From positions 115,540 through 179,539 of the forward strand of contig JAMPEW010000002.1 of the NCBI GenBank assembly GCA_023664775.1: 64,000 nucleotides of DNA. Reading direction: 5' to 3'. The position numbers were made by a program, and so were the translations under genes. Below, piece after piece: positions 2,085 to 43,893 of this stretch. The notes under the pieces were generated by a model. The model did not search any database and had not been told where the DNA came from. It worked only from the letters and a program-made list of their open reading frames with translations. Within the stretch, counting starts at the first letter, position 1; every line of letters starts with the position of its first letter. This stretch comes from Clostridium sp. Lineage in GTDB: Bacteria; Bacillota; Clostridia; Lachnospirales; Lachnospiraceae.

Positions 2085-2134
2085 GTTGCAATTCAGTGAC
2101 TTCAAGTTGCAATTCAGCGACTTCAGGTTGCAAT
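2085..2134 (-). promoter_or_regulatory. 21-bp direct repeats, candidate LytTR-type operator (LRR gene)
   Basis: TTGCA occurs at 2086, 2107 and 2128, exactly 21 bp apart, within the units GTTGCAATTCAGTGACTTCAA and GTTGCAATTCAGCGACTTCAG plus a partial third copy. The array lies about 100 bp upstream of the LRR start. A possible -35 (TTGTGC, near 2069-2074) and -10 (TAGAAT, 2047-2052) sit just downstream on the minus strand. The same spacing and partly the same spacer occur at three other promoters in this window (33393, 41971 and 43864). Confidence 0.6.
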
Positions 2135-2257
2135 CGCAAAAAAACAAACGGTGTAAGCTTGAAATATATTAGAGAAATTATCATATGAAAGAAACAATTA
2201 TGGTATACTATGCGTAAACGCATATTATACTTTGCGAAAAACCATCGCAAATAGCGC

Positions 2258-2290
2258 ATCGTCAATCTTTGATTGACGATATGGTATAAT
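2258..2290 (+). promoter_or_regulatory. Promoter with overlapping palindromic operator for the asparaginase-family gene
   Basis: A perfect 10-bp inverted repeat with a 3-base centre (ATCGTCAATC / GATTGACGAT, 2258-2280) covers the expected -35 region. TGGTATAAT (2282-2290) is an extended -10 element. No good -35 is visible, which fits an extended -10 promoter under an operator. The binding protein is unknown. Confidence 0.55.
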
Positions 2291-2304
2291 ATTCACGACA
2301 GCAA

Positions 2305-2427
2305 AGAGCAGTGCCGGTCTGTAAGATGAAAAACGGTTGCTTGCAGACCGTTTTTTCATCTTACAGACTGATAGGGCGAATGCCCGTGAGCGAGATGAAG
2401 CGCAGCGAAATCGAGCTGCACTGCTCT
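2305..2427 (+). repeat. Hairpin element with terminal inverted repeats, in the asparaginase leader
   Basis: The ends are 10-bp inverted repeats, AGAGCAGTGC (2305-2314) and GCACTGCTCT (2418-2427). Inside, 2315-2337 pairs almost perfectly with 2347-2370 (one bulge, one G-U). The same left arm can instead use CGGTCTG (2315-2321) with CAGACCG (2344-2350), which is followed by six T: a terminator-like alternative. The element lies between the promoter and the ribosome-binding site of the next gene, so it could be an attenuator, a small mobile palindromic repeat, or both. One reading frame through its right half gives TDRANARERDEAQRNRAAL, a translation I do not consider a real protein. Confidence 0.55.
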
Positions 2428-2448
2428 ACAATAGAATAGGAGGCTCAC

Positions 2449-3501
2449 ATGAACATTTGCGTAATATTTACAGGTGGAACCATCAGCTCGTCAGAAAAAA
2501 ACGGCTACCTCGGACCTGACGAGGCAAACAATTACAGATTAATAAATGAATATAGAAAACACAATCCCGAAAAATGCGCCGATATAAGCTTTCGCACAGC
2601 CGAACCCTACTATATATTAAGTGAAAATCTGATGGGAACACATATAAATCTGCTTGCAGACTGCATAGACAAAGCAGCATCCTCTGACAACTGCGACGGC
2701 ATTATTGTAACGCATGGTACGGACACCCTGCAATACACGGCTGCTGGATTGTCATATATTTATTCTGCGGCTGACATTCCGATTGTTCTAGTATCGAGCA
2801 ATTATATCCTTGATGACAGCAGGGCGAACGGTTATGCTAATTTTTCAGCAGCTATAGATTTTATTATGACCTGCCACAAAGCAGTAAAAGCTGCCACTGC
2901 CTCCACAGAAAATAATTTCCCAAATAATACTGTGGCAAAGCACAGTGGCGTTTACGTTGCGTACAAAAATGAAAATGCGTCTGCCGTTATACACTATGGC
3001 GCAAGACTTCTTGCCCATATGTCATACAGCGATAGCATATACAGCGTAGATAATTTCACGGCATCGGGCATCGGAATGAAAGAACCATATAAAATAATGA
3101 AAACTGCTACGGAATTTATTTTCGGTGACAAGCCACGGTTTTCAGAGCAATCGCCTATCGCATTTATACGCCCATACCCTGGCGAAAGATATACCTTAGT
3201 ACCTGAATATGTACGTGCAATATTGTTAGACACCTACCACTCAGGAACACTCTGTACAGACAGCAGTGCATTAAGGGATATGCTTTTTGATGCAAACAAA
3301 AGAACCATTCCCGTATTTCTGACAGGTGCAGAAAACAGAACAGCCTATGAAAGCACCAAAATCTATGACGAGCTGAAGATAACTGTTTTACCAAAGGCAT
3401 CCCCAATCGCCATGTACATGAAGCTTTGGCTGCTCGCTTCCACAGGCTGCGATACGATTTCAAAATATATGAATACTCCAGTAAGCTTTGATATTGTTTA
3501 A
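2449..3501 (+). CDS. Asparaginase/glutaminase-family amidohydrolase
   Basis: 350 residues. It has both asparaginase signatures: FTGGTISS near the N-terminus (nucleophile Thr region) and VTHGTDTLQYTAAGLSY at about residues 87-104 (second Thr and Asp). The family hydrolyses L-asparagine to aspartate and ammonia; some members act on glutamine or in Glu-tRNA amidotransferase complexes. There is no signal peptide, so it is probably cytosolic. The C-terminal half is less recognisable than the N-terminal half, so the substrate is uncertain. The start follows AGGAGG by five bases. The gene stands alone, converging with the dlt-like operon, and its 5' leader carries an unusual hairpin element and a palindromic operator. 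Confidence 0.8.
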   Translation: MNICVIFTGGTISSSEKNGYLGPDEANNYRLINEYRKHNPEKCADISFRTAEPYYILSENLMGTHINLLADCIDKAASSDNCDGIIVTHGTDTLQYTAAGLSYIYSAADIPIVLVSSNYILDDSRANGYANFSAAIDFIMTCHKAVKAATASTENNFPNNTVAKHSGVYVAYKNENASAVIHYGARLLAHMSYSDSIYSVDNFTASGIGMKEPYKIMKTATEFIFGDKPRFSEQSPIAFIRPYPGERYTLVPEYVRAILLDTYHSGTLCTDSSALRDMLFDANKRTIPVFLTGAENRTAYESTKIYDELKITVLPKASPIAMYMKLWLLASTGCDTISKYMNTPVSFDIV

Positions 3502-4493: not shown

Positions 4494-5984
4494 TTAGTAT
4501 GCTGCATAAATCATATCTACCACAGTATAGCCTGCACCATATGCACCAAATATCACAATACATAAAATTGCTGCATACCAAAATCCCCATCTTAGGACAA
4601 GCTTCTGCGAGGCAATTTTTTGTCTTATGGATATTCCCTTTTCATGTAACACATCCACAAGCATGACAATGACAAAACATACGGCTGCCAAAATCATGTC
4701 ATATCCGTCCACTCCGAAATTTGTCTCCCAAAGTGCTGATAGATTAAAGCTTGTCAGCATTCGCCCAAGCATGCCAAAGCCTTGGGATACTGTTGGTGCA
4801 CGGAAAAACATTTCTCCGATATTTACAATGAAAAAAAGCTTGATACTCCTGAGAAGCCTTACCAGCATCCCGTCAGGGGAAAGCCTCACATGCTCCATAA
4901 GCTTTGCGGTTGGGTTCTCCAGTACATTTTCCAAAAATATAATCACAAAATAATACATGCCGTAAAACAAATATGTCCACCCTGCTCCATGCCATATTCC
5001 ATTAGACAGCCAAACAAAGAACAAGGCGATTGTCGGAGCAACAAATTTACTTACACGTATTCCCCATATTCCCTTGACATGTTTCGCAAGCTTTTTTACA
5101 GGCTTTGCAAGAGATACCGGATAAAAAACATAATCCTTAAGCCATGCCCCTAACGTAATATGCCATCTCCGCCAAAAGTCAGAAGCATTCCTTGCAAAAA
5201 AGGGCTGCCTGAAATTTTCAGGTAGTTTAATGCCGAATATCTGTCCACTTCCAATAACAATATCCATGCAGCCCGAAAATTCCATATATAACTGTATTGT
5301 AAAGCATATTACTCCCACAGCAATCGCTGAGCCTGCATAGCTCTCATATGAATGAAATACCTTGCCAACCACTGGGGCAATCCTATCCGCAATAAGCATT
5401 TTTTTGAAAAGTCCCCAAATAATTCTCTGATACCCAAAGACAAGATTTTCAAACTCTATTTGCTTTCCTGCATAAAGTGCTTCGGCAGCTTCGCCGAACC
5501 TGCTTATCGGTCCCTCAATAATCTGAGGGAAAAAGCTTAAATAAAGCGCCGTCTTTGCAAATTTTTTTTCTGCATGAATTGTGCCCCTGTACACATCCAT
5601 CATGTATGAAATGGTTTGCAGCGTATAATAAGATATTCCGATTGGGGCAATCAGGCTTATTCCAAACACCTTCAGATATTTGTACACAATCAACATGCCA
5701 AGGGTCATACAAACGCCACATGCAAGAACCATACGTTTTCTTGTGGTAAGCTTTTTACCCTTAAGCTTTCCGCGCTCCATAACAAAGCCCAAAGCACGTC
5801 CTGTTGTATATGTAATCACAGTTGCCGCCAAAAGACATAGAATAAGTGTTTTGCTTATCATCCAAAAAAACACATAATCAGCTGCAAGCAGCACGAACCA
5901 TCTATATCTTTCAGGTGCAAGCTGATACAAAAGCATCACGACGGGCAGAAATATTAAGCTGTAGGTGAGAAGATGATAGGCCAC
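4494..5984 (-). CDS. MBOAT-family O-acyltransferase (DltB/AlgI-like)
   Basis: 496 residues with about eleven predicted membrane helices. The MBOAT core is visible: FWRRWHITLGAWLKDYVFYP at about residues 268-287 and the conserved His in NGIWHGAGWTYLFYG at about 330. It probably moves an activated acyl or aminoacyl group across the membrane from the carrier protein encoded just upstream. The start is GTG at 5984, overlapping the ribosome-binding region of the carrier gene's end (AAGGAGGAGGG), with one base between the two ORFs. Known DltB uses D-alanyl-DltC; the cargo here is unknown because the operon also contains a decarboxylase. Confidence 0.88.
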   Translation of the reverse strand: MAYHLLTYSLIFLPVVMLLYQLAPERYRWFVLLAADYVFFWMISKTLILCLLAATVITYTTGRALGFVMERGKLKGKKLTTRKRMVLACGVCMTLGMLIVYKYLKVFGISLIAPIGISYYTLQTISYMMDVYRGTIHAEKKFAKTALYLSFFPQIIEGPISRFGEAAEALYAGKQIEFENLVFGYQRIIWGLFKKMLIADRIAPVVGKVFHSYESYAGSAIAVGVICFTIQLYMEFSGCMDIVIGSGQIFGIKLPENFRQPFFARNASDFWRRWHITLGAWLKDYVFYPVSLAKPVKKLAKHVKGIWGIRVSKFVAPTIALFFVWLSNGIWHGAGWTYLFYGMYYFVIIFLENVLENPTAKLMEHVRLSPDGMLVRLLRSIKLFFIVNIGEMFFRAPTVSQGFGMLGRMLTSFNLSALWETNFGVDGYDMILAAVCFVIVMLVDVLHEKGISIRQKIASQKLVLRWGFWYAAILCIVIFGAYGAGYTVVDMIYAAY

Positions 5985-5985
5985 C

Positions 5986-6216
5986 TTAACCCTCCTCCTT
6001 TAAACGGCAAATCATGTTCCAAAGTGCTGCTGCCGAATTGAAATTATCCGGAATAAGCTCCGCAGGGGACACCTCAATATCAAATGCTTCCTCAAGCTCA
6101 GAAACCAAGGAAAGTATCGCAAAAGAATCCAAAATGTGGTCGTCAATCAGTGTCGTACAGTTTTTTACATCCTCCCCCGGTGCAATTTCCTCCAAAATCT
6201 CAAGTAATTTTTCCAT
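5986..6216 (-). CDS. Acyl/aminoacyl carrier protein (DltC-like)
   Basis: 76 residues, acidic and helical. DHILDSFAILSLVSELE holds the Asp-Ser pair where 4'-phosphopantetheine attaches (Ser at about residue 31). The size and motif match DltC and related carrier proteins. It sits between the decarboxylase (15-base gap) and the MBOAT gene (one base), so it very likely carries the product of the adenylation enzyme to the membrane acyltransferase. The start ATG follows GGAGGATAAATAA. Confidence 0.85.
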   Translation of the reverse strand: MEKLLEILEEIAPGEDVKNCTTLIDDHILDSFAILSLVSELEEAFDIEVSPAELIPDNFNSAAALWNMICRLKEEG

Positions 6217-6231
6217 TTATTTATCCTCCGT

Positions 6232-7407
6232 TTAACTATTTAGTATATTTATCTCAGTTTTATTCCTTAACACTACTACGCATCCGTCCGTTCCCACAAG
6301 AATAACCTGTGGAAGCTCCCTGCTTAAAAACAGTGCCATTCCCTCGGTTACCGAATAGGCGCCGCACCTTTCAAAAACCAAAACGTCACCCACGGCGTAA
6401 TCCTCCTGCGCTGCTCCACGCACCAAAACATCATTTGCAGTACATAATGAACCACAAATTGTCCATTTTGTTATGGACGCATCCCCCTGTTTTCCTGACA
6501 GTTTCAGGAGCTTGCTATACGGCTTTTTCATTCCCATAAGCTGTCCGTAGTAGTTTATCTGATGAATACCACCGTCAACGATTATATAACCCATGCCGTC
6601 CGACTTTTTTATATCCATAATACGTGTCAGAAAGACGCCGCACTCTGCCGTCAAAAAACGTCCAAGCTCTATGGTAATGCACCTGAACCCACTAACCTTT
6701 TTCAAAAGCCTGCCTAGTTCCTCAATATCCTCCTGTCCCAAAGAGATTTCGCCTTCAAAATAGGAAATTCCAAGTCCCGGACCATATTCCAGCTCCATAT
6801 CGGCAACCCCGTATGTTTCCGTAAGATAATCGGCATATTCCGTAAGCATTGCCAGCTCTTTTTCCACCTTATCAATTTTCTTCTGCGTGCCTGCATAATA
6901 GTGAATACCCGCAAACTCCAGCACACCGTCCGCAATCAGCTCACAAAGCACGCCCTCAAGCGTCTCCTTATCCATTCCAAACTGGTTTTTTGCAGACAGC
7001 CTTAAAAATACCTTGAGCCTTATGCCCATATTCCCTGCACAGTCCTTTAAAAGCTTGTATTGCATGGGAGATTCTATTGTATAAAAGCCTTTTCCCTGAC
7101 TGTAGGATAACATTCTTTTCATAGATTCTTCCGTTTTGCTCACGCCTGATACAACAAGCCTTTCAGGGTCTATGTTCTCCCTTATGCATATCTCATACTC
7201 TCCCGGCGAGCAAACCTCCAGCCTGTCTGTCATATGTGAAAGACGTTCTGCAAGAAATGGATTTGCTTTCATGGCAAAACACAATCCTATATTATTCGGA
7301 AGACTCCACCTGATTTTTTCGGTCAGGTCAAAAAGTATATCCTCGAAAAACACATATGTGGGCGTCCCATATTGCAGGGCAAGCTCCATTATTTTTTCGT
7401 AATTCAC
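6232..7407 (-). CDS. PLP-dependent decarboxylase (ornithine/DAP/arginine decarboxylase family 2)
   Basis: 391 residues. The alanine-racemase-like barrel carries the PLP lysine in CFAMKANPFLAE (about residue 47). The C-terminal part has GSLCTANDVLVRGA and FERCGAYSVTEGMA, typical of the diaminopimelate/ornithine decarboxylase fold. The usual EPGR phosphate-binding motif reads ELGRFLTAECG. It is short compared with LysA (about 415-430). Its place between an adenylation enzyme and a carrier protein suggests that it makes or modifies the amine-bearing group that is activated, not that it serves lysine synthesis (inference). The start codon is GTG after GAGGAATAAGAT. Confidence 0.85.
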   Translation of the reverse strand: MNYEKIMELALQYGTPTYVFFEDILFDLTEKIRWSLPNNIGLCFAMKANPFLAERLSHMTDRLEVCSPGEYEICIRENIDPERLVVSGVSKTEESMKRMLSYSQGKGFYTIESPMQYKLLKDCAGNMGIRLKVFLRLSAKNQFGMDKETLEGVLCELIADGVLEFAGIHYYAGTQKKIDKVEKELAMLTEYADYLTETYGVADMELEYGPGLGISYFEGEISLGQEDIEELGRLLKKVSGFRCITIELGRFLTAECGVFLTRIMDIKKSDGMGYIIVDGGIHQINYYGQLMGMKKPYSKLLKLSGKQGDASITKWTICGSLCTANDVLVRGAAQEDYAVGDVLVFERCGAYSVTEGMALFLSRELPQVILVGTDGCVVVLRNKTEINILNS

Positions 7408-7440
7408 ATCTTATTCCTCGTTTCTTCTACATATTATTTC

Positions 7441-8973
7441 TTATTCATCAATTCTCTTTCTTGTATACGTTTCCTTAAGCAATTTTCTGTCTGTCTTGCC
7501 ATTTTTTGTAAGAGGCAGCTTGTCCATGTGTTTCAATACATTTGGCACCATGTATTCAGGTACATGTTTTTTCATTTCCGATATGATAAGCTTTTTGTCG
7601 TCTCCACCCACATAGCAGGCAACAAGCTTGCCCACCTTCTCGTCATAAAAACAGCAGGCATGCTCCACAATGCTTACGGCATTTAAGACACTTTCTATTT
7701 CCTCAAGCTCTATGCGGCGTCCCATATGCTTAATCTGAAAATCCTTTCTTCCTGCAAAGCAGAGAAGCCCCTCGTCGTTATAATATGCCAAATCCCCTGT
7801 CCTATATATTATTTCAGGAAAAGTCTCGTTGAGCGGGTTTTGCACAAAGGATTTCGCCGTCATTTCGGGATTATTATAATATCCAAGGGCAAGCGAGCTT
7901 CCTGCAACACAAATTTCTCCATGCGAAAATGTATTTTCTTTTGTTATCTCATGGTCTGCCTCGTCAAGAAGCATTACCCTTTCATTTGGAAATGCGGTTC
8001 CCATAGGAAGTATATCGCCCTCCGAAAAAGGTCTATCCAGCACATAATATGTACAGTTGCAGGTTATCTCCGTCGGTCCGTAAAGATTTACAAACAGTGC
8101 ATTGGGATAACAGGACTTCCACAGATTAAGCTGCTTTACAGGCATCACCTCGCCACTGAATAAAATTTTATTTATATGGGAGGGTATTTTATATTTCAAT
8201 CCGTGGAGACGGCTTAACAGACATAGTGCCGATACAGCCCAAATAAGCGTTGTCACGTTATTTTCCTCAAGCATATCCACAACACGGTTCGGAAACATAA
8301 AATATGCTTTTGGAATAATGACAAGGGTTGCACCCATTTTCAAGGTGCTGTAAATGTCCTTTACCGACACGTCAAAGTCGAAGGGTGCCTGATTGCCAAT
8401 CACGTCATCTCCTGTTATGTGAAACATATCCGTAAAGCAATCTATAAAATCAATGACCGACCTATGACATATCAGCACTCCCTTTGGAATACCTGTTGAG
8501 CCTGAGGTGAAATTACAGTAGACAGGATCCGTATCCACCATTTTATTTCTGACAGCCACAAGCGCCTCCTCATCCACAGATACATCCCTGTACAAATCAG
8601 ATACGATAAGTATTTCTCCCTCAAAGCCTGCCCCTCTCAGCTTCGCTTCCTTGTCAGGCTCGGTAATTACAATATCGTTTTTCAGTGTTTTAAAAATCAT
8701 CCCGATTCTATCAGCGGGAAAGGAAGGGTCCAGCAACGTGTAAAAGCACCCTGCATATAAAATTCCCATAAATGCTTTTAGAGCCGTAACGCCCTTATCC
8801 ATACATACTACAATGGGTTTTCGCATATCGGTTTTTCCTAAAAGCATCGTTCCTATACATCTTGCTTCTTCCGTAAGCTGTCTGTATGTACATGATATGC
8901 GCTCGTCCATTGCCGCCGTTTTATGCGGACAGCGTTTATCGCTTTCCTCTAAGTATTCCAAAACATTGTTCAT
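7441..8973 (-). CDS. Amino-acid adenylation enzyme (DltA-like)
   Basis: 510 residues from the ATG at 8973, which has GAAGGAAGGG before it; a GTG at 9021 would add 16 residues. The ANL-superfamily motifs are clear: FTSGSTGIPKGV (P-loop), NLYGPTEITCNCTY, YRTGDLAYYNDEG and the C-terminal catalytic lysine in LTKNGKTDRKLL. It activates a carboxylate as the AMP ester and loads the carrier protein encoded two genes on. It resembles DltA (D-alanine to DltC), but the decarboxylase neighbour means the substrate should not be assumed to be D-alanine. It is first in a tight five-gene operon reading down to 3498. Confidence 0.85.
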   Translation of the reverse strand: MNNVLEYLEESDKRCPHKTAAMDERISCTYRQLTEEARCIGTMLLGKTDMRKPIVVCMDKGVTALKAFMGILYAGCFYTLLDPSFPADRIGMIFKTLKNDIVITEPDKEAKLRGAGFEGEILIVSDLYRDVSVDEEALVAVRNKMVDTDPVYCNFTSGSTGIPKGVLICHRSVIDFIDCFTDMFHITGDDVIGNQAPFDFDVSVKDIYSTLKMGATLVIIPKAYFMFPNRVVDMLEENNVTTLIWAVSALCLLSRLHGLKYKIPSHINKILFSGEVMPVKQLNLWKSCYPNALFVNLYGPTEITCNCTYYVLDRPFSEGDILPMGTAFPNERVMLLDEADHEITKENTFSHGEICVAGSSLALGYYNNPEMTAKSFVQNPLNETFPEIIYRTGDLAYYNDEGLLCFAGRKDFQIKHMGRRIELEEIESVLNAVSIVEHACCFYDEKVGKLVACYVGGDDKKLIISEMKKHVPEYMVPNVLKHMDKLPLTKNGKTDRKLLKETYTRKRIDE

Positions 8974-9074
8974 CGGTACCCTTCCTTCTGCTGTGGTGTT
9001 CTTTTGTGCCATTCCTTCCACCTTACGCTGAATACATTATCAGATAAATTCTTAACATTAAACCTATAATTCCT

Positions 9075-28917: not shown

Positions 28918-28923
28918 CGCAAG

Positions 28924-31178: not shown

Positions 31179-31207
31179 TATTGGTGCCCTTTTTGTTATT
31201 TATAACT

Positions 31208-33292: not shown

Positions 33293-33392
33293 AATGATTA
33301 CCTCCTTTGAAATTCATCTTAATTGAACATTTGCTTTTTTCGTGTTCCTGATGAGGCTATCTTATATCAATATGAGAAGGCTTTGTTTCATG

Positions 33393-33420: not shown

Positions 33421-33429
33421 TTTGTGTTA

Positions 33430-33798
33430 TTATCCAAGTCTGATTTGATTTTCCTCACTTCCTATCAAGAGAGTGCTTCCCGGCTTCACAGAAGTGTCAG
33501 CACCCTTTTTAAGCTTATATTTTTCATTTACTACCACTCCATTGGTGGAACAATCATTGACAATGTAGTCATAGGTCTTACTGTTAAATATAATCGAGCA
33601 ATGTACCCTGCTTACCTTATCTCCCTTGATTTCTACATCACATTGCGAGGAATCCCTGCCTAAAAAATACAGCGTATCGCTTTTCAGCCTTATTATTTTT
33701 CCCAAAAGAAATCCTTTTTGCCCTATCAACGCCCCGCCATTGCTTTGGTTCATGGCAAGGCTTCTCGTAACCGTAAAGCCTGTTTTTGGCACTTGCAC
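33430..33798 (-). CDS. Small single-domain FHA protein
   Basis: 122 residues from the GTG at 33798, which sits six bases behind GGGGGC and one base after the stop of the upstream LytTR gene; a TTG at 33825 is a less likely start. FHA motifs are LGRDSSQCDVEI, VSRVHC and DCSTNG. It has no membrane helix. The tight coupling to the LytTR gene suggests that this free FHA protein bridges phosphorylated partners and the regulator (inference). Confidence 0.78.
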   Translation of the reverse strand: MQVPKTGFTVTRSLAMNQSNGGALIGQKGFLLGKIIRLKSDTLYFLGRDSSQCDVEIKGDKVSRVHCSIIFNSKTYDYIVNDCSTNGVVVNEKYKLKKGADTSVKPGSTLLIGSEENQIRLG

Positions 33799-33799
33799 A

Positions 33800-34507: not shown

Positions 34508-34595
34508 AATTTAATTCTTTCTTCTGTTTAACATTTCTTCTATACAGTGCCTTTATCAGTGCGTCAACATCACTCGGTCTGTAGTGAATCTATTG

Positions 34596-37500
34596 TTAAT
34601 ACACATACTCGGTATTCAAAATCTCTATGTTGCTTCCTGTCGGCTTTGTTGTGCTGGTCTGTGTTGGACCATAGGTTGTTCTTGTGTACTCATAAAGCTT
34701 TTCACGCGTGCGGTATTTATATACGGTATAATAACTGGTATTTACCTCATTTTTCATTGCTGTTATTGTATTAACACCTGCCGCACCATCAGCACTTAAT
34801 CCTTTATCATTTTGATATGTGTAAACTGCATCCGCAGTCTGTTGACCATATATTCCGTCGATACCACCACTCCAATCCCTATACCGTTGTTTTAAAAATG
34901 CCTGTATCCACTTTACTCCGGGATAAGACAAATATGCATCATTATCACCTACTTCATACGCATAACCATCCATTGCAACTGGTTCTTGATAGCCACTCAT
35001 GTTATATGTATACACACGTCGTCCATCGTCTATATCCCTTAATTCACTTTTGGTTCCCGGATTTGTTGTTTCCGCACTCCATGCACTCCAATCTGTATAA
35101 GTATAATTTCCTGTATATGTCCATCCGCTTAATGAACTGCTTGTGCTTTCAGTAGTTTCTGTTTTTTTCGTTCGATACGTGTATATCATTGTATTATTAC
35201 ATACAACAATATTTACGGAGCTTCCCTTAGCTACCTTTTGCCCTGCTGCTGTGGTTTGGGCTGTTACAGTTCCTGTCGAATAGCTTTCGTTATGCTTATA
35301 AGTTACTGTTCCAAGTGCAAGTCCTAAGCTCTCCAATTCATTTTCTGCCTGCATTTCCGACTTATTCACAAGATTAGGGACTGCAACTTTTCCAGCATCA
35401 GGATCGGGCTTTTCTACTGTTACAGTACAACTAGCCTTTACCCCTGAGCCGTCATTTGCACTTGCCGTTATTGTTGCCGTTCCCGCATTCACAGCCGTTA
35501 CAGAACCATCAGAGCCTACACTTACAACCCCACTATTACTGCTACTCCATGATACACTTTGATTCGTAGCATTTGTCGGTGCTATTGTTGCACTTAAACT
35601 AAAAGAATTACCTACCAGCAATGTCCTTGACGTATAATTAAGCGTTATGCTTTTCACATAAATTGTCGCTGGCTCAGGGTCAGGCTTCGGTGCCTCCGTT
35701 CCAATATCTGTCGGTTTTTCCGTTGTTGTCGGCTCCTGCGTAGTCGACTCAGATAGAGTTGGTTCCTGCGTCGGTGTCTGTGTGGTCGGCTCATATTTAG
35801 GTGCACTTTCAGCCTCAGGATTTCCCCTGCTTACCCATATAGTTATTGTCGTTCCATATACAACCTCTGTTCCTGCTGCCTCACTCTGTCTTATTACACC
35901 GTCCTTTGCCACAGTATTACTGTCCTCATACTGAACAGTTACAGCCAGCCCCGCATCTGAAAGCAGACGTTCCGCCTCCTGCTTTGACTTATAGGTTACG
36001 TCAGGCACCCTCGTTTTTCTTTCACTTTGTTTTCCAAGACTTATGATAACTCCAATTTTTGTACCCTCTGACACCTCTGTTCCCGCCTTTGTATTTTGGG
36101 ATATAACGTGCCCTTCAGGTACTGTATTACTGTAATCCGAGCCGGCTTTGTATATGTAAAGCTTTGCATTTGTCATGCTTCTTGCTGCATCGTTATAGCT
36201 TTTTCCAACAACATTCGGCACAGTTGTATTTTTATTTTCATCGAATTTGTCATTTCCTGTTGATACATATATAAATATCTTCGTGCCTTTTTCAAGCCCT
36301 GTGCCATTTTCAAGGATATTTCCTTCCGCATCCGTCTGCCTCGTTATATATCCCGGCGCAATCTCATCAGAGGCTTCCTCAATAACCTCAATGTCAAAGC
36401 CAAGCGCTTCCAATAACTCTACTGCCTCCTCCTGCGACAGTCCCATAATGTCAGTCAAATATTCGATTTCCTTGCCTGCACTTACGGTAATTTCTATAAC
36501 GGTTCTTTCCTGTATGACCTCTCCAGTCGGTATATTTTGTGACAAAATAAAATCCTTCGGTATTTCATCATCATTTTTTTTGTCAACAATCTGTGTAATC
36601 AAATTTCTCTCACTGATGATTGTCTCAGCCCTTTCCAGCTCCATATTTCTTACCTCAGGCGCATACACATACCCCTTTTCTAATTCGCCGCTGTCACTGT
36701 GAAATAAGTCTGCAAACTGTATTACCCCTGTAAGAAGCAACACAATAAATGCTGCGATTGCCGTAGAAGCAACCCCCGAAGTAATCTTAAGCCACAAGGG
36801 CCACTTACCCACATCCATTTTTTTGAAACGAATTTTGTTTCTCTTTACATCATTTTCAGTTGATAAATCTGCCTCAAATGCCTCCGCTGTCTGTGTCCTG
36901 TCCTCAATTCTTAAATTAAGTGCATTCATGATGGCATTTTCTTTATTTTTTGGTATTTTCACTCCCAGCTTTGATGGTGGCACAAGCGTGTCCTTGTTGC
37001 CCCGCTCCATGGAATCCTCAGGTGTAACACCTGTTATCATCTTGTATAAGGTTGCGGCACATGCATAAACATCCGTCCATGTACCCTGGTCGCCCCTGCT
37101 TCTGTACTGCTCCTGCGGCGCATATCCGGGCTTTACAATAACAGAAAGGCTCTTGCTGTGTGTCGTCGTGGCATAACGTGCCGCACCAAAATCAAGAAGC
37201 TTTACCTCCCCATATTTTGTAACAAAAATATTGTCCGGACTTATGTCCCTGTGCAAAATCCCCTCCTTATGAACCTCACCTAATGCCTTTATAATCGGCA
37301 TCATAAGATTGAGTGCTTCGTCAACAGGTATTTTCCCCTCTTTTTCAAGCTTATCCTTCAGCGTCTCGCCCTCTAGATATTCCATAACAATGTATGCCGT
37401 GTGGTTCGCCGTAAAGCTGTCGAAAATCCTTACAATTCCAGAGGTGTTTCTAAATTTGGCAAGTCGTCTCGCCTCATCCACAAATTTTACGATGCCGTCT

Positions 37501-37814
37501 GCAAACTGCTCCTCACGCTCTCCCGAGAAAATCGTCACGTCAGAGGCTCCCGTTGCCCTCGTTGCAAATTCACCAGGCAAATATTCCTTTATGGCTACCC
37601 TCTGATTTAAAACAGAGTCATAGCCTAAATATGTAACACCAAATCCACCGTAGCCTATAACTTTTCCGACAATGTATTTATCTTTTATTGTTGTCCCGGG
37701 AACAAGGTGATATGCCTCCTTTGGCGGCGTGCCTTCCTCATATCCGCAATACGGACATACATTATATTTTTCATTATAGGCTTCCATACAGCCTAAACAT
37801 AATTTTTCCGACAT
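34596..37814 (-). CDS. Membrane Ser/Thr kinase with PASTA, Big2 and peptidoglycan-binding domains
   Basis: 1072 residues from the ATG at 37814 behind AAAGGAG. A zinc ribbon (CLGCMEAYNEKYNVCPYC) is followed by the kinase domain (about 40-305) with GYGGFGVTYLGYD, VAIKEYLP, LHRDISPDNIF and LLDFGAARY. One membrane helix lies at about 340-365. Outside are four PASTA repeats (about 385-660), a Thr/Pro linker, a Big2 Ig-like domain (SVSWSSSNSGVVSVGSDGSV), a fifth PASTA repeat and a C-terminal part holding a PG_binding_1-like domain (DGIYGQQTADAVYTYQNDKG). It is a wall-sensing relative of PrkC/PknB; the added Big2 and PG-binding modules are unusual for that family. Confidence 0.9.
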   Translation of the reverse strand: MSEKLCLGCMEAYNEKYNVCPYCGYEEGTPPKEAYHLVPGTTIKDKYIVGKVIGYGGFGVTYLGYDSVLNQRVAIKEYLPGEFATRATGASDVTIFSGEREEQFADGIVKFVDEARRLAKFRNTSGIVRIFDSFTANHTAYIVMEYLEGETLKDKLEKEGKIPVDEALNLMMPIIKALGEVHKEGILHRDISPDNIFVTKYGEVKLLDFGAARYATTTHSKSLSVIVKPGYAPQEQYRSRGDQGTWTDVYACAATLYKMITGVTPEDSMERGNKDTLVPPSKLGVKIPKNKENAIMNALNLRIEDRTQTAEAFEADLSTENDVKRNKIRFKKMDVGKWPLWLKITSGVASTAIAAFIVLLLTGVIQFADLFHSDSGELEKGYVYAPEVRNMELERAETIISERNLITQIVDKKNDDEIPKDFILSQNIPTGEVIQERTVIEITVSAGKEIEYLTDIMGLSQEEAVELLEALGFDIEVIEEASDEIAPGYITRQTDAEGNILENGTGLEKGTKIFIYVSTGNDKFDENKNTTVPNVVGKSYNDAARSMTNAKLYIYKAGSDYSNTVPEGHVISQNTKAGTEVSEGTKIGVIISLGKQSERKTRVPDVTYKSKQEAERLLSDAGLAVTVQYEDSNTVAKDGVIRQSEAAGTEVVYGTTITIWVSRGNPEAESAPKYEPTTQTPTQEPTLSESTTQEPTTTEKPTDIGTEAPKPDPEPATIYVKSITLNYTSRTLLVGNSFSLSATIAPTNATNQSVSWSSSNSGVVSVGSDGSVTAVNAGTATITASANDGSGVKASCTVTVEKPDPDAGKVAVPNLVNKSEMQAENELESLGLALGTVTYKHNESYSTGTVTAQTTAAGQKVAKGSSVNIVVCNNTMIYTYRTKKTETTESTSSSLSGWTYTGNYTYTDWSAWSAETTNPGTKSELRDIDDGRRVYTYNMSGYQEPVAMDGYAYEVGDNDAYLSYPGVKWIQAFLKQRYRDWSGGIDGIYGQQTADAVYTYQNDKGLSADGAAGVNTITAMKNEVNTSYYTVYKYRTREKLYEYTRTTYGPTQTSTTKPTGSNIEILNTEYVY

Positions 37815-37847
37815 AGCGTTACTCCTTTCAAAAAACATCCAATACCA

Positions 37848-39971
37848 TTACTCGCTTTTATCCATCTGCTCTAAAGCATATTTTCTTATATCCATCTGCT
37901 CCTCAGGATAAAATACAAGCTTATTCATATAATCATTGACAAGTTCATATTGTCGGTTTGTATTTACAAATGTTTCATATGCCGATTTATTTATTGGTAT
38001 TGCCGCCCCATTTTCCACATGAAGCTTCTGCTGTGGACCTGCCTCCAGCATATATTTAAACCAAACCTTTGCCGCACGTATTTCCTTCTCATCTGCATTA
38101 CCGTCAATGCAGTATGTGTCCGTAAATATTCCGTATACTGCTTCCGTTCCAAATGGACACATCTGATAATTTCCTGCAGCGTTTGCATTGAAATCTGACA
38201 ACTCCATGGCAGATGAAACATAAAATATAATTTCCCCATTTGCAAAAAGCGTGATTGCATTTTTCCCATCATCTGCTATTTTATTTGTCACCGCTTCATT
38301 TTCCATATCCGCAAGCATGTTTTCCCCTATTTCGTCTATTTCAATCCCGCCGTTCATTCTGATACTACCGCCAAGGCTGTTGACATATAAATCATAATAA
38401 ATCGGATCACAATAGTATTTTCCTGCTTCAAGCTGTGTAAATGCAGTAAGCACAAATTCCTGCATATCGATATCATCGTTACGTCTGACAAACACAACAG
38501 GCACATTAAAGCCTAACGGTACTATTTTGGAATTTATAAGTTCCTTTTTGTAATCCTTTAAAAAATAGTAATCACTCATGTTATTTAAACTTTTATATAC
38601 ATCCTCTACCGATGCAGCCTTAGAGATAATGTCAGCGTCCGCAAACTCCTGCTCATATATAGTCGGCATAGTTCCCAATGCATCAGCCTCTTTAAGCCTG
38701 TCGGCATATTCCTCCTCAGGGATTGCTTCTGCCACAACAGTAACTGCCGGCTGGTCACGCATAAAGCTTTGGGACATTTCCTCTATCATATGCTCCTTTT
38801 CTTCCTTGTCCTCATCCTCCCCATAGCTCACCCATACAGTAATGGAAGCCTCTTTTAGCTCAGGGTCCTTTGCATCATAAATCCTAAATGCCGTTAAACA
38901 ACCAATAAGCAAAAGCACTGCTGCTATGGATATTCCCATTACTCTTTTTCTCTTTCTTTTTTTCAGTTCCTTTTCTACATCAAGCACCTTTTTTTCATTG
39001 CTGAGTGCTTTTTTTAGTTCATCTACACTGCGAAATCTAAGCTCACTGTTCAATGCCATGCCCTTCATTATGGTTGTGCTTATGTATTCAGGTATAGCCG
39101 GATTAAGCTTAATTGGTGTGTCAAGGTTATCTTCCACCACTCTATTTACACTTTCGTCAGGTAATACTCCCGTGATGCATCTGTATAATGTAGCAGACAA
39201 GGCATATATGTCTGTCCAAGGTCCCTGCTTACTTTTAGACTGATACTGCTCTGGCGGTGCAAATCCCGGTTTTAAAATAATAGATCGTGTAACCTCCTTT
39301 TCCTCATCAGAAAATCTTGCAGCGCCAAAATCAATCAGCTTTATTTTTCCACCCTGACAAAGAAATATATTATCCGGGCTTATATCCCTGTGTATGATTC
39401 CTTCTCTGTGTATTTGTCTTAAAGCATCTATGATTGACATTGTTATTTCCACTGCCATCTCATAATCAATGGTTCCACCCTCCTGCTTTAAGAAGTCCTT
39501 TAAGGATATACCGTCGAGAAATTCCATAACTATGTAAGCCGTATTATTTTCTTCAAAGAAATCATCAACGTGTACAATATTGGGGTTGTCATGAAACTTT
39601 GCCATATTTCTTGCCTCATCAAGAAATCTTGACAGACCTGAAAAATATTCCTTTCTTCTTTGTCCACCATATAAAATAACGACTCTTTCCCCTGGGATTC
39701 TCTGTACTTGTCCTGTAGGATAATATTCCTTAATTGCAACTACCGTGTTTAAATTTTCATCCCATGCCTTATAGGTTATTCCAAAGCCTCCAAACCCCAA
39801 AACCGTTCCTATAATATATCTGTCCCTAAGCCTCATTCCCGGATATAAATGGTATATTTCCTTCGGCTTCGTGCCCTCTGCAAAACCACAATACGGACAG
39901 ACACCGTTTTCATTTTCCTGCCCGTTTGGTATATTAAATTCTTTCATACAATTCAGACATCTTCTGACCAT
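37848..39971 (-). CDS. Membrane Ser/Thr kinase with extracellular solute-binding-protein-like domain
   Basis: 707 residues. A zinc ribbon (Cys 5, 8, 25 and 28) leads into the kinase domain (about 50-315): GFGGFGITYKAWD, VAIKEYYP, IHRDISPDNIF and LIDFGAARF. One membrane helix lies at about 345-366 after a KKRKRKR stop-transfer stretch. The extracellular part of about 330 residues starts ITVWVSYGEDED and continues like a family-1 extracellular solute-binding protein (EEYADRLKEADALGTMPTIY; GNYQMCPFGTEAVYG; AAKVWFKYMLEAGPQQK). It could detect a sugar or similar ligand and pass the signal straight to the kinase. Substrate unknown. Confidence 0.85.
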   Translation of the reverse strand: MVRRCLNCMKEFNIPNGQENENGVCPYCGFAEGTKPKEIYHLYPGMRLRDRYIIGTVLGFGGFGITYKAWDENLNTVVAIKEYYPTGQVQRIPGERVVILYGGQRRKEYFSGLSRFLDEARNMAKFHDNPNIVHVDDFFEENNTAYIVMEFLDGISLKDFLKQEGGTIDYEMAVEITMSIIDALRQIHREGIIHRDISPDNIFLCQGGKIKLIDFGAARFSDEEKEVTRSIILKPGFAPPEQYQSKSKQGPWTDIYALSATLYRCITGVLPDESVNRVVEDNLDTPIKLNPAIPEYISTTIMKGMALNSELRFRSVDELKKALSNEKKVLDVEKELKKRKRKRVMGISIAAVLLLIGCLTAFRIYDAKDPELKEASITVWVSYGEDEDKEEKEHMIEEMSQSFMRDQPAVTVVAEAIPEEEYADRLKEADALGTMPTIYEQEFADADIISKAASVEDVYKSLNNMSDYYFLKDYKKELINSKIVPLGFNVPVVFVRRNDDIDMQEFVLTAFTQLEAGKYYCDPIYYDLYVNSLGGSIRMNGGIEIDEIGENMLADMENEAVTNKIADDGKNAITLFANGEIIFYVSSAMELSDFNANAAGNYQMCPFGTEAVYGIFTDTYCIDGNADEKEIRAAKVWFKYMLEAGPQQKLHVENGAAIPINKSAYETFVNTNRQYELVNDYMNKLVFYPEEQMDIRKYALEQMDKSE

Positions 39972-40018
39972 GTCAAGCTCTCCCTTTGTACAAGCAAAAA
40001 ATTTTTATCACTTAGAAT

Positions 40019-41023
40019 TTATCCCAACCTAAAAGTATCGCCCTTTTTACCGAGCTGTATGATTGTGCCTTTTTCAAGCTCTATAGGCACGTTTTCGTCC
40101 AATCTTTTCCCTCCAAGAATGTATGTCCCATTACTTGAAAAATCGGTAACAAGATATTTCCCCGTTGCTGTGTTATACTCAACCTTACAATGTTTTCTAC
40201 TGATTCTGTCAGAATTTATGACAAGCTGGCATGCCGACGGACTTCTGCCTATTAATATTCCCTGTCCGATTTCAAGGCAGGCGCCTTCATATTCTCCGCT
40301 TAATCCCATTATTTTCGCGACTATTCCCGATACTTCACTTCCCTTTATACACTCAAGTATTAGTCCAATAAGAGATGTTAAAAATGCAGCAATTGCAATT
40401 ACAAAAAATATCCAAAATCCAAGCTTTAATGTATTTTGAAGCAGGTCACGAACAAATCCTCCCGCTCTGTCAAGCAGCGTTGCCTCCACAAAATCTACTA
40501 AAAGGCTCTGCCACATTCCACCATCATCTACCAGCTTGTTTTTTATCGCCTCTATAAGCGCATCCCTAAACACATTCGGCAATATGAACATAATTGAAAT
40601 AAGCGAAAATGCAGATAAAAGTGAAGATACCATAGATAAAATATATTTCAATTTTTTCTTTAACACACATATTAATATGATAGTGATAGCTGCAAATGTC
40701 CATGATGCAATAAGAGCTGTAATGGAAACCTTTTTCATTACGGCTATTTTTTTTAGCTCCTTATCTGTTTCTATTTTTATAAGCTTACCCAACAGACCGA
40801 TTCCGTTTTTCTGCTTAATTAAATATATTTCTTTATCCTCATCATCTGCAGAGGTAATTTCCAATACAAGCTCATGATCCTCATACAAGTCTCCAAAATT
40901 TTCCTCGAAGGCTTTATTGATATCCTTGTTTGTTACACTAAAATAAGGCATAAACATTGTGCATATGCCAAGCAGCATCAAAACGGAAACTACTATTTCA
41001 AATACTATCGTTCTCTTATTCAT
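40019..41023 (-). CDS. Multi-helix membrane protein with C-terminal FHA domain
   Basis: 334 residues from the ATG at 41023 behind GGAGGGAG; the ORF opens earlier at 41059 without such a site. Membrane helices are at about 6-28, 98-120, 125-150 and 195-222, with an extracellular loop after the first. The C-terminal FHA domain (about 250-334) shows LIGRSPSACQLVI, ISRKHC and DFSSNG. It is encoded between the PP2C phosphatase and the solute-binding kinase and is probably a membrane target or scaffold of that kinase. Confidence 0.8.
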   Translation of the reverse strand: MNKRTIVFEIVVSVLMLLGICTMFMPYFSVTNKDINKAFEENFGDLYEDHELVLEITSADDEDKEIYLIKQKNGIGLLGKLIKIETDKELKKIAVMKKVSITALIASWTFAAITIILICVLKKKLKYILSMVSSLLSAFSLISIMFILPNVFRDALIEAIKNKLVDDGGMWQSLLVDFVEATLLDRAGGFVRDLLQNTLKLGFWIFFVIAIAAFLTSLIGLILECIKGSEVSGIVAKIMGLSGEYEGACLEIGQGILIGRSPSACQLVINSDRISRKHCKVEYNTATGKYLVTDFSSNGTYILGGKRLDENVPIELEKGTIIQLGKKGDTFRLG

Positions 41024-41043
41024 TTGTTCTCCCTCCACAAATT

Positions 41044-41772
41044 TTACTCGTTTGTCCATATGGCGATTGCCGAATTGTTATCCATATTTTTTCCTGCACC
41101 GTTTGCCTTTACCTCAGCAACCATAAAATCCATCCATTGCTCCACGCTTTCAGCCTTTTTAAGGTATGCCATCATTTTCTTTTCTTCAATAAGCTCCCAA
41201 AAGCCATCGGAGCAAAGCAAAAACGCCTGACATTTCCCCAATGGAACATGCTCGGAAATATCAAAAGAATGATTGTTATTCCACGGACTTCCCATTACTC
41301 TTAACAATCTGTTTCTGTCCTCGTGTCCTCGTATGTCCTTTTCCTTTATTTCCCCTGTGCTTACAAGCATTTGAGGTACACTGTGGTCCAAGGTTCTTGT
41401 TATAACCTTATTTTTATTAAACTGGTAAAGACGTGAATCGCCGATATGTGCCCAGTATGCTTCGTTATCACAAATGATTAGACTTACCATTGTTGTTTTC
41501 ATGTCTGCAAGCTCCACATTTTCCTGCTGATTATGCATTATGTTTGCCTGTGTTTTATTAAAGCATTTTTCTAAAAAGCCCTCGTCAAATTCCTCCACAA
41601 ACATTTCAAGAGCTGTCTTTACAGCAATGGCTGACGCACATTCTCCCCTGCCATGTCCGCCTAAACCATCGGCAAGGGTAAAGCAGTACCTGCCCTTTTC
41701 CTCAAGCATACCTACACTGTCCTCATTTATTTCCCGTCCACCTATGTCGGTATAGATTTTGTATGTAACCAT
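41044..41772 (-). CDS. PP2C-family Ser/Thr protein phosphatase
   Basis: 242 residues. Motifs are DIGGREINEDSVG, LADGLGGHGRGECAS, HIGDSRLYQF and LLCSDGFWE, giving the acidic metal site of PP2C/PrpC enzymes. It should oppose the kinases encoded downstream. It is the first gene of the main operon block (41772 down to 33430), with a LytTR-type repeat about 200 bases upstream. The start ATG follows GAAAGGAACTTATC. Confidence 0.9.
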   Translation of the reverse strand: MVTYKIYTDIGGREINEDSVGMLEEKGRYCFTLADGLGGHGRGECASAIAVKTALEMFVEEFDEGFLEKCFNKTQANIMHNQQENVELADMKTTMVSLIICDNEAYWAHIGDSRLYQFNKNKVITRTLDHSVPQMLVSTGEIKEKDIRGHEDRNRLLRVMGSPWNNNHSFDISEHVPLGKCQAFLLCSDGFWELIEEKKMMAYLKKAESVEQWMDFMVAEVKANGAGKNMDNNSAIAIWTNE

Positions 41773-41969
41773 GATAAGTTCCTTTCTTAGAGTGTTTTTA
41801 TATTCACTGCAATTTTTTATCTTTCCAAGCTATTCAAATACCGTACAGTAGCCATTTCATGTGGATATGGATCAAATTCTGCAAGGTAAAACACTTCGTC
41901 CTGTCCCAATACTTATTTACCAATTCACTATTGCCTACTATATCATTAATTTCAGGTTTATGAACCAAG

Positions 41970-41997
41970 CTTGCATTTTTTACACTTAAACATGCGA
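41970..41997 (-). promoter_or_regulatory. 21-bp direct repeat, candidate LytTR-type operator (PP2C operon)
   Basis: TTGCA at 41971 and ATGCG at 41992 are 21 bp apart with the spacer TTTTTTACACTTAAAC. It matches the site at 43864 closely. A -10-like TATAGT (41942-41937) and a weak GTTCAT -35 with 17-base spacing lie just downstream on the minus strand. The remaining 41773-41936 stretch shows nothing else. Confidence 0.6.
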
Positions 41998-42031
41998 AAT
42001 TTGATATATGAATGTGCTTATAAAGCTACCA

Positions 42032-42070
42032 CACTAAAAAATGCACCATTCGGTGCAGTCATTTTTAGTG
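42032..42070 (-). terminator. Terminator after the acidic-stalk membrane protein gene
   Basis: CACTAAAAAATGCACC and GGTGCAGTCATTTTTAGTG form a hairpin just beyond the stop at 42138 on the minus strand, with U-rich stem ends. Confidence 0.65.
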
Positions 42071-42137
42071 CAACAGCTTCTCGGTAAAATATAAAATAAT
42101 ATCGTTCTTCTGTACATTTATGTAATTTTTTATACTA

Positions 42138-42974
42138 TTAATTATACTGTGCAAACGGCGTAAAACTACCCACATATACACCTTCATATTTTCCCATAAT
42201 ATTGTTTGCTGTTTCCTCATCTATATGTGTATACAATGTTTCATCATATGGGTCTTCTGTTGTATAAAAGTATGGATTATCAAGGTCTAAATCAGCATTT
42301 AAAGCAACACACTCCAAATATTTTAACTCACGTGCTCCTGCTTCAAGGACATAAAAGATATAATATGTAGTTTTTGCCCCACCTGAGCCTACAGTTGGCA
42401 TTATGCCATCCTTACATATATCAAACCTATTACGCTCCGTGCTTTGAGCAATAAGAAATACCTGCTCATCCTGACATGTATAAACATCAAATATAAGACC
42501 TTCAATTTCTCCAACAATTAATTCTTCAAGCCCATCTTCGTTTATGTCATAAAACGTATATCCTATATCCTCCAATCCAGTTCCTATATGATAACGGCAC
42601 ATATAATTGAGCTTATTTTCTTCCAATAAGTCAAATTCCCATTCTTCAGAAAGTGCCCTTTTATATAAATCCAAAATATCGCCATACATAAGTTCAGTAT
42701 TTACCGTTTCCGTCGTTTCTAAAGCTGCTGTAATCCATTCCTCTGTTATTTCTTCTGAGATTTGCTCAGTTATATATTCTGTTTTTTCTCCCTCTGTGGT
42801 TTGCTCTGTCACAACTTCCTGCTCTAAAGCCTGTTCGGTTTTTTTCTTTTTATCTTCTTTGGTATTTGACTCATTTTTTGATATAAAGGATATAGAACTG
42901 TAAACTGCAATTCCAAGAATAAACAGTGTCGCAATACATACCATTGTAGTTTTAAATATTTTATCAGGCTTCAT
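42138..42974 (-). CDS. Membrane-anchored extracellular protein with acidic stalk
   Basis: 278 residues. One N-terminal membrane helix (about 10-32), a Lys-rich then Glu/Thr-rich stalk (TEQTTEGEKTEYITEQISEE) and an extracellular domain from about 95. The domain has a calcium-loop-like DINEDGLEELIVG, common in VCBS/FG-GAP-like repeats of Gram-positive surface proteins. No enzyme motif is seen. It lies 117 bases downstream of the orphan LytTR gene and may be co-transcribed with it. It could be the signal-receiving or effector partner of that regulator (inference). Confidence 0.7.
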   Translation of the reverse strand: MKPDKIFKTTMVCIATLFILGIAVYSSISFISKNESNTKEDKKKKTEQALEQEVVTEQTTEGEKTEYITEQISEEITEEWITAALETTETVNTELMYGDILDLYKRALSEEWEFDLLEENKLNYMCRYHIGTGLEDIGYTFYDINEDGLEELIVGEIEGLIFDVYTCQDEQVFLIAQSTERNRFDICKDGIMPTVGSGGAKTTYYIFYVLEAGARELKYLECVALNADLDLDNPYFYTTEDPYDETLYTHIDEETANNIMGKYEGVYVGSFTPFAQYN

Positions 42975-43091
42975 TTATAAACTCCTCCATATAGTACATA
43001 ATTACATATCCCATATTATTTTCTCCAAAGACATCATATATGTCATTGTAACTTTTCGTCTCATACATAATCTTTCTGACATTACATACCC

Positions 43092-43796
43092 CTAGCTTTC
43101 CCAAAATTCTTTATATCTTTGTCTGACTGTTTTTTCATATGTCCGTCCTAAAGGGATATGCATATTATTTGACATTTCTATCACATTATCATGTATGTAT
43201 ACAATCTCTGCCAAATTTGCAATATAGCCGCCATGCACTCTGAGCATGTAATCGCCTAAATTACCCATAAGCTTAATCAGCGAAAGATAACACGAATATT
43301 TTTTACTCTCCGTAACAATGTTTACTTTTCTATCTTCCCGTTCAATATATAAGATTTTTTTCTTATCAATAAATGCAGTAGCCCCATTACATGCAACCTT
43401 CAAAATATCGTTATGTATATTGTCCTGAATCTCTGTGACCGCTTTATCTATGGCTAATGGCAAAATTTTTTCTAACTCCGTTTTTAGTACAAAATAACAA
43501 TGCTTTGTATCATATACACGAAGGGCATACTCAATGTAATTTGAAAAAAAAATCACCTCACACAAGGGAAATAGTTGATTGACCTTCTTAACCAAATCAA
43601 TTCCATTAAAGCTACGGTTTTTAAAACAAATACTTATTACCAACACTTCACAATCAAATAGACCCTCCTCTATATCAACAAGCAATTCCTCAGGTTCATA
43701 CTCTTTGATATTAAATAGTCTATTATATATAGTTTCAATTACCGTTTCCGCATTTTCAATATCCGTTTTGTTGTCATCACATATTCCTAAACGCAT
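43092..43796 (-). CDS. LytTR-family regulator with a degenerate receiver domain
   Basis: 234 residues from the ATG at 43796 (AAGAGAG upstream, typical MRLGICDDN start); in-frame ATGs at 43838 and 43844 are possible. The receiver keeps the acidic pair (CDDN) and the Lys in YFVLK, but the phospho-acceptor position is Ser (CEVLVISICF where the paralogue has NLLLLDIYM). The C-terminal LytTR domain includes ILYIEREDRKVNIVTE, LRVHGGYIAN and LGRTYEKT. It should therefore act independently of Asp phosphorylation. A 21-bp repeat just upstream suggests autoregulation. Confidence 0.82.
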   Translation of the reverse strand: MRLGICDDNKTDIENAETVIETIYNRLFNIKEYEPEELLVDIEEGLFDCEVLVISICFKNRSFNGIDLVKKVNQLFPLCEVIFFSNYIEYALRVYDTKHCYFVLKTELEKILPLAIDKAVTEIQDNIHNDILKVACNGATAFIDKKKILYIEREDRKVNIVTESKKYSCYLSLIKLMGNLGDYMLRVHGGYIANLAEIVYIHDNVIEMSNNMHIPLGRTYEKTVRQRYKEFWES

Positions 43797-43862
43797 AGTA
43801 TAAGCTCTCTTCAGTATATTATTTTTTGATGTTACCATAAACATACCTTCTTTTGATTCAAC

Positions 43863-43893
43863 CTTGCATTTCTTACATTTAATCTTGCAAAAT
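43863..43893 (-). promoter_or_regulatory. 21-bp direct repeat, candidate LytTR-type operator (orphan LytTR gene)
   Basis: TTGCA at 43864 and 43885 are 21 bp apart, spacer TTTCTTACATTTAATC. Minus-strand TATACT (43818-43813), 17 bases from TTTATG, is a plausible promoter and would leave a short leader before the ATG at 43796. The stretch 43894-44040 is AT-rich with no feature that I can support. Confidence 0.6.

Follow-up and report, generated by a model that had tools for sequence, protein, structure and literature searches.

Predicted LytTR-type direct-repeat promoters at an FHA, kinase, and PP2C gene cluster in a Clostridium species

The cluster and its two LytTR genes

The DNA analyzed here, hereafter the window, is a stretch of 64,000 nucleotides from Clostridium sp. 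of the family Lachnospiraceae (assembly GCA_023664775.1, contig JAMPEW010000002.1, positions 115,540 to 179,539). It holds a minus-strand cluster of genes for FHA proteins, kinases, PP2C proteins, and a CHAP protein, together with two lytTR genes. Repeats with a 21-bp step lie upstream of four minus-strand genes and are numbered site 1 (leucine-rich repeat, LRR, surface protein gene), site 2 (CHAP gene), site 3 (PP2C operon), and site 4 (a lytTR gene). Our comparisons support a LytTR-type promoter class, predicted at sites 3 and 4, that is conserved across species and highly specific within this genome.

A putative first operon, tier 1 (33430 to 41772, minus strand), comprises genes for a PP2C protein (41044 to 41772), an FHA protein (40019 to 41059), a kinase (37848 to 39971), a PASTA kinase (34596 to 37838), a response-regulator LytTR protein termed LytTR2 (33800 to 34507), and another FHA protein (33430 to 33825), with successive intergenic gaps of −16, 47, 9, 88, and −26 bp. 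An interval of 137 bp, which holds site 2, separates the end of tier 1 from the CHAP gene. The latter would head a second operon, tier 2 (20381 to 33292, minus strand), encoding CHAP/GBS_Bsp-like (31208 to 33292), VWA-FHA (28924 to 31128), kinase-FHA (27592 to 28917), PP2C (26748 to 27611), FHA (25986 to 26708), and FHA-ABC (23691 to 25973) proteins followed by three FHA genes (20381 to 23672), with gaps of 79, 6, −20, 39, 12, 18, 118, and 33 bp. The same gene order is present in two other genomes, G008 and G002, where gaps in the first operon do not exceed 37 bp and the interval at site 2 spans 105–120 bp. The order differs only in a second PASTA-type kinase gene in G002 and in one extra small gene after CHAP in both genomes.

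An earlier note, made from the letters of the stretch, had placed two LytTR genes inside the cluster, and PF04397 matches confirm this at 43092 to 43844 (55.5 bits) and at LytTR2 (67.1 bits), both on the minus strand and with a cut-off of 22.6 bits. The first protein, here called orphan-type, has a receiver-like N-terminus in which the phospho-acceptor Asp is replaced by Ser. LytTR2 also matches Response_reg (50.4 bits) and keeps the phospho-acceptor Asp of a canonical response regulator, in LLLLDIYM; its neighbors, judged by annotation and not by a dedicated histidine kinase search, are Ser/Thr kinases, PP2C, FHA, and secreted proteins. Judging from the family alignment, the listed start of the orphan-type gene, 43844, is probably too early and the true start is probably 43796 (MRLGICDD), which would place site 4 about 70 bp upstream of the gene, a normal promoter position. 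Relatives of this protein in the genus are 78% (G014), 59% (G028), and, for the others, about 33–39% identical, and a search of genome contigs gave two relatives at 32–37% identity. Stop-containing orphan-type copies also occur at G008:C90:43066-43800 and G002:C4:59051-59797, each between an intact copy and a response-regulator-type (RR-type) copy.

The phospho-acceptor position is Ser in the own genome (G000, 2.65 Mb), Gly in G014, and Glu in G028. Among 21 orphan-type family members, 13 keep Asp and eight have lost it (Ser, Gly, Glu, or Asn). In regions of unequal length (3.0 to 10 kb), and with a query from an Asp-keeping locus (G002:C10), which favors finding kinases at such loci, a GHKL kinase relative was detected near 12 of the 13 Asp-keeping members (one being the query's own locus, and the miss being G003) versus none of the eight that lost Asp; a separate GHKL motif search gave 9 of 13 versus 0 of 8. 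At the orphan-type lytTR gene of the window, a search confined to the locus (39501 to 48000) found neither a tblastn match at 1e-3 nor a GHKL motif. The orphan-type regulator thus shows neither the Asp nor the neighboring GHKL kinase of a canonical response regulator. A tree was built for LytTR2 together with the 21 members (22 rows), with the Asp column included in the alignment; on it the Asp label requires three changes, each of them forced by starred branches. Asp loss therefore goes with kinase absence more than once.

Direct-repeat promoters of the TGCA class

Site 4 (43864 to 43889, minus strand), upstream of the orphan-type lytTR gene, has the form TGCAAGATT-12-TGCAAGGTT and is kept in G014 and G028. 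The extended −10 element of this promoter, TGGTAACAT (43829 to 43837, minus strand), lies 30 nt after the second TGCA and is identical in G028. Site 3 (41971 to 41996, minus strand), upstream of the PP2C operon, has CGCA as its first half and is followed, 29 nt after the second TGCA, by the extended −10 element TGATATAGT (41937 to 41945, minus strand). The consensus common to both sites is TGCA-N17-TGCA-N29/30-TANNNT. Read on the minus strand, TGCA-N17-TGCA is present at sites 4, 3, and 1, with that one deviation at site 3, and TANNNT follows 29 or 30 nt on, with the TGN of an extended −10 before the hexamer. The earlier note had described TTGCA or TTGTA repeats at a 21-bp step before all four genes. 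The letters agree at 2086/2107/2128 (TTGCA), 33393/33414 (TTGTA), and 43864/43885 (TTGCA) but on the plus strand read ATGCG at 41992, leaving site 3 with one imperfect half.

As a definition of the regulon, the bare repeat TTGYA-N16-TTGYA was rejected as unspecific, with 209 matches (98 + 111) in the own genome. In the window it has 10 matches versus a shuffle mean of 1.46, and four of the 10 belong to the site-1 array, read on both strands. The match at 20343 to 20368 is part of a palindrome and not of a LytTR-type motif. This palindrome, TTGTATA-N6-TATACAA, recurs at G000:C19:15546 and G000:C15:38573 and lies upstream of PDDEXK_2 transposase-family genes in the window (19055 to 20200) and on C19.

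By contrast, a compact pattern of sites 3 and 4, allowing up to three mismatches, finds these two sites only in the 2.65-Mb genome (control, 0). Profile searches, for which all E-values are rough, gave a similar result. Profile R1 was trained on six sites, among them sites 3 and 4, which makes its strong matches at those two circular. Profile R2 draws on 12 sites from six other species (G028, G008, G002, G018, G012, and G031), with the own genome and G014 excluded; its alignment had 14 rows, from which G025 and G035 were dropped because their −10 elements were misplaced. Of 4,107 first-look candidates, 138 were scored with R2. Three matches in the own genome reached E ≤0.05, and the top two are site 4 (6.4e-6) and site 3 (5.3e-5), followed by one on contig C13 (0.02).

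The class extends to other genomes. G028 retains the repeat and the −10 element while the intervening bases have diverged. G014 has three TGCA-class promoters, before lytTR, before the counterpart of the gene at 42138 to 42974 (57% identical), and before an extra 542-aa gene ahead of PP2C. In both G008 and G002, such a promoter precedes the PP2C ortholog (65–67% identical), and the G002 PP2C site, held out of R2 training, matches at 7.0e-7. Other genes behind TGCA-class promoters encode Ser/Thr kinases, FHA proteins, ChW-repeat proteins, further LytTR proteins, and a 401-aa protein adjoining a GHKL kinase. A weaker held-out R2 match in G018 (E 0.003) precedes a protein, ≥2,026 aa long, whose start, judged by eye, is signal-peptide-like. 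Another weak held-out match, at G012:C6:81741 (E 0.006; L244, G012:C6:77001-90000), precedes a 1,539-aa FHA-FtsK/SpoIIIE protein. This protein resembles a type VII secretion ATPase, and the candidate site may connect the TGCA motif with an export system.

The spacing of the repeat was examined in 42 stretches (546 kb; G014:C66 omitted as a near-duplicate). In a count in which triples enter twice and an array may score on both strands, TGCA being palindromic, pairs located 20–350 bp upstream of an open reading frame (ORF) number 25 at the 21-bp spacing versus five or fewer at any of 28 other spacings. TANNNT occurs exactly 29 nt past 14 of these 25 pairs (background, 0.035 per offset), and six of 25 at each of the offsets 24 and 46; the distance to the −10 element is nearly fixed. 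Orphan-type lytTR genes were analyzed at 17 loci, comprising family relatives down to L056, with the partial match L055 left out. Within 300 bp upstream, T[AG]CA-N17-T[AG]CA is present at eight of the 17 versus 0–3 at 18 other spacings. The G031 gene has a CGCA version of the repeat, and in G002:C10 the pair lies before kinase genes upstream of lytTR. Some other protein could recognize these repeats, with lytTR genes simply among its targets, as MerR-like BldC and others bind direct repeats (PMC5859096). We judge this unlikely, given that in several species lytTR genes of a single family have the sites in front of them and that a published LytTR form (PMC6193735) consists of 9-12-9 direct repeats close to an extended −10.

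The TTACA-class site and the site at the LRR gene

Upstream of the CHAP gene, and a short way past the second lytTR gene, is site 2 (33393 to 33418, minus strand). Its motif, TTACA-N7-TGTCAAA-N2-TTAC, has a 21-bp step and a −10 distance similar to that of the TGCA class: the candidate −10 of the CHAP promoter, TAAGAT (33359 to 33364, minus strand), is 29 nt after TACA, with TATAAG two bases upstream as an alternative. The motif recurs before CHAP orthologs (51–59% identical) in G008, G002, and G033, with a −10-like hexamer 29–30 nt on and a diverged spacer. In all four lineages it stands between the LytTR2-FHA genes and CHAP, and three of the four also carry TGCA sites. Profile R3, trained on the site-2-class sites of these lineages, was run, like R2, against 37 genomes of the genus. 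Its strong matches (E 1e-13 or lower) lie before CHAP only, in five genomes (the four used for training and G014, with an identical copy), which are also the five with LytTR2 at ≥53% identity. A held-out full-length match in G019 (E 3.8e-4) precedes a secreted C39-peptidase-like protein that shares a GBS_Bsp-like repeat family with CHAP, and five further matches are weaker (E 0.008–0.045). Site 2 is a different conserved sequence, probably one that serves LytTR2. A TTACA-21-TTACA pair, followed at 29 nt (by-eye count) by an extended −10, was also seen upstream of a minus-strand ORF (4959 to 7379) of G008:C73 (L267) that encodes a ChW/transglutaminase secreted protein; the pair is a possible further member of the class.

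Site 1 (2085 to 2134, minus strand) is a tandem 21-bp repeat with half-sites GCAACCTGA, GCAACTTGA, and GCAACCTCT, upstream of the LRR surface protein gene (264 to 1988, minus strand). Its extended −10 element, TGGTATATT (2073 to 2081, minus strand), follows the second TGCA by 29 nt and the third by 8 nt. A pattern search of 41 genomes, which took in 25 of the 37 genus genomes, found site 1 in two, G000 and, at the same place, G014. As a mark of an LRR promoter family, site 1 was rejected: in 13 further stretches plus L118, the 260 bp upstream of ORFs of >250 aa contain no repeat resembling it at a 21-bp step with 8 of 9 bases identical, and the few other 8–9 of 9 repeats in that scan are of unrelated sequence. 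The own genome has 11 LytTR matches, and of nine upstream regions (180 bp) of its other lytTR genes, two hold an 8-of-9 repeat, neither resembling site 1.

These results would be expected if site 1 were a chance tandem duplication without a regulatory role, an explanation that is doubtful but carries more weight than the other alternatives considered here. It is opposed by the rarity of the full arrangement: the window has two occurrences of TGCA-21-TGCA followed at 29–30 nt by TGNTANNNT, at sites 4 and 1, and none of 200 window shuffles has any. When the TGN of the extended −10 is not demanded, there are four occurrences versus a shuffle mean of 0.32 and maximum of 2. This geometry, together with a LytTR-like half-site (GCAACTTGA) that also occurs in the published SMU_1070c repeat, makes it probable that site 1 belongs to the LytTR type as well. 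Minus-strand genes for MBOAT, PLP-decarboxylase, and AMP-binding domain proteins are found near the LRR gene at 4494 to 9021; they resemble a dlt-like acyl-transfer cluster.

A single LytTR protein acting at all four promoters would explain why the half-sites are 21 bp apart at every site, why a −10-like hexamer stands 29–30 nt after the second, and why the half-site TTGCAA of site 1 is identical to that of site 4; differences between sites would then fall within the degeneracy of LytTR sites. However, neither R1 nor R2 lists site 1 or site 2 among its window matches up to E 10 (71 for R2), and site 2 retains its own sequence in four lineages, including the three that also have TGCA sites. A plus-strand R2 match at 33410 to 33436 overlaps site 2 and covers model positions 42–67 only. 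We therefore assign a single regulator a low probability. The earlier note's proposal of one motif with alignable spacers at four promoters is replaced by one class at sites 3 and 4, where the spacers do align, a second conserved class at site 2, and geometry only at site 1. LytTR-type repeats hold up, conserved and specific, at lytTR and the PP2C operon, with a related geometry at CHAP, and the proposed regulon link to the LRR protein 30 kb away would depend on site 1, which shows the architecture, has no profile match, and is found in two of 41 genomes.

The sites could instead be operators for repression or autorepression. In G018, G012, and G031, as at site 1, three consecutive half-sites are present, the third lying 8–9 nt before the −10, within the promoter spacer, a position from which a bound protein could obstruct RNA polymerase. 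With a possible −35 at site 3 (TTCATA-16-TATAGT, 9 of 12 consensus matches), an activator is perhaps not needed there. Against this stands a consensus scan of 30000 to 45000, a range that takes in sites 2, 3, and 4. Neither the −10 element of site 4 nor that of site 2 coincides with a promoter in its list, although the scan as a whole finds no more than shuffles do; the absence of a consensus promoter is what activated promoters would show. LytTR repeats in the literature that lie ahead of the −35 act as activators (PMC6193735). Repression appears improbable.

A predicted cascade and related systems

The account we favor, with moderate confidence, is that the two LytTR regulators form a series, each working at the predicted sites through its own promoter class, with one geometry common to both classes. 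The orphan-type LytTR would occupy one face of the DNA at the TGCA-N17-TGCA direct repeat, immediately ahead of the extended −10. From there it would activate the gene that encodes it (site 4) and, through site 3, the PP2C-FHA-kinase-PASTA kinase-LytTR2-FHA operon. LytTR2, as a product of this tier-1 operon, would bind the TTACA...TTAC class (site 2) and activate the following CHAP-VWA-kinase-PP2C-FHA-ABC operon. We infer this pairing of regulators with classes, and we read two tiers into the locus because the order from site 3 through the LytTR2 operon and site 2 to the CHAP operon is conserved in G008 and G002.

Several observations weigh against this cascade. The TGCA profiles are silent at sites 1 and 2, and the exact T[AG]CA pair is absent upstream of nine of the 17 orphan-type lytTR genes. 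Among RR-type lytTR genes, for which 25 of 30 loci were covered, the pair is found at 4 of 25 with the 21-bp spacing but equally at 4 of 25 with 12 and with 23 bp. R2 matches at E ≤0.05 occur in 30 of the 37 genus genomes, and weak R2 matches are therefore mostly noise. Near-full-length R2 matches are present in G007 (1.5e-4) and G017 (0.004), which have no close orphan-type LytTR. The exact site-2 pattern with up to three mismatches is confined to this genome and G014 among the 41, a set that took in G002 and G008 and left out G033. In G019, which has the held-out R3 match, the best LytTR2 relative is only 32% identical. Finally, the co-occurrence of LytTR2 and strong R3 matches is consistent with the cascade but not independent, because four of the genomes trained R3 and the fifth is identical.

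A broader scenario, which we offer as speculative and somewhat improbable, is that this LytTR family was rewired from histidine-kinase control to Hanks-type Ser/Thr kinases, PP2C, and FHA proteins. The direct-repeat promoters would have been kept while the GHKL kinase and phospho-Asp were lost (three changes, most simply three losses), and the regulator would now head a self-amplifying two-tier cascade that switches on a kinase cluster whose products may modify it. As a hypothesis, the cluster's own Ser/Thr kinases may have taken over control of the orphan-type LytTR. Among the papers listed in searches of the open-access literature, none joins LytTR with FHA/PP2C/kinase clusters. The present analysis predicts near-fixed-geometry promoters for FHA, kinase, PP2C, and surface-protein clusters in several species of one genus and names their likely regulators.

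LytTR direct-repeat promoters have a pair of half-sites some 21 bp apart ahead of the target promoter, and the sites described here share this arrangement. In the LytTR regulatory systems (LRS) HdrRM and BrsRM of Streptococcus mutans (PMC6193735), a soluble LytTR regulator is encoded with a membrane inhibitor and autoregulates through two 9-bp direct repeats 11–13 bp apart at a promoter where an extended −10 is common. One repeat in the same source, that of SMU_1070c (GCAACTTAG/GCAACTTGA), resembles the site-1 half-site. In the table rows available there, the repeats lie 4–11 bp upstream of −35, and the second ends 27–34 bp, mostly 31–34 bp, before the −10 (distances summed for this comparison). 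The repeat described here ends 24–25 bp before the −10, counted from the end of the 9-mer TGCANNNNN and assuming the register of the true 9-mer, and so falls outside the LRS range. The present regulators further differ from LRS in their receiver-like N-termini and in the two repeat classes within one cluster. The gene that follows the orphan-type lytTR (42138 to 42974), where an LRS could encode its membrane inhibitor, has no Pfam match.

AgrA combines a receiver with a LytTR domain, the same architecture as here. It shares with the present system direct repeats upstream of weak promoters, which for AgrA are centered near −60 (PMC4227749). The repeats here would be near −52 if transcription starts 7 nt after the −10. 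Unlike AgrA, the orphan-type regulator lacks the phospho-acceptor Asp, and no histidine kinase was detected nearby. By analogy, the promoter may work like an AgrA or LRS promoter with the repeat moved closer to the −10.

Pseudo-receiver regulators (PMC12632262) likewise have a receiver-like domain without the Asp. The LytTR family provides a natural series of related regulators with and without a histidine kinase and phospho-Asp, making pseudo-receiver control directly testable. It differs from those regulators in that the Asp state changes three times within one family tree, and Asp loss accompanies the absence of a neighboring GHKL kinase.

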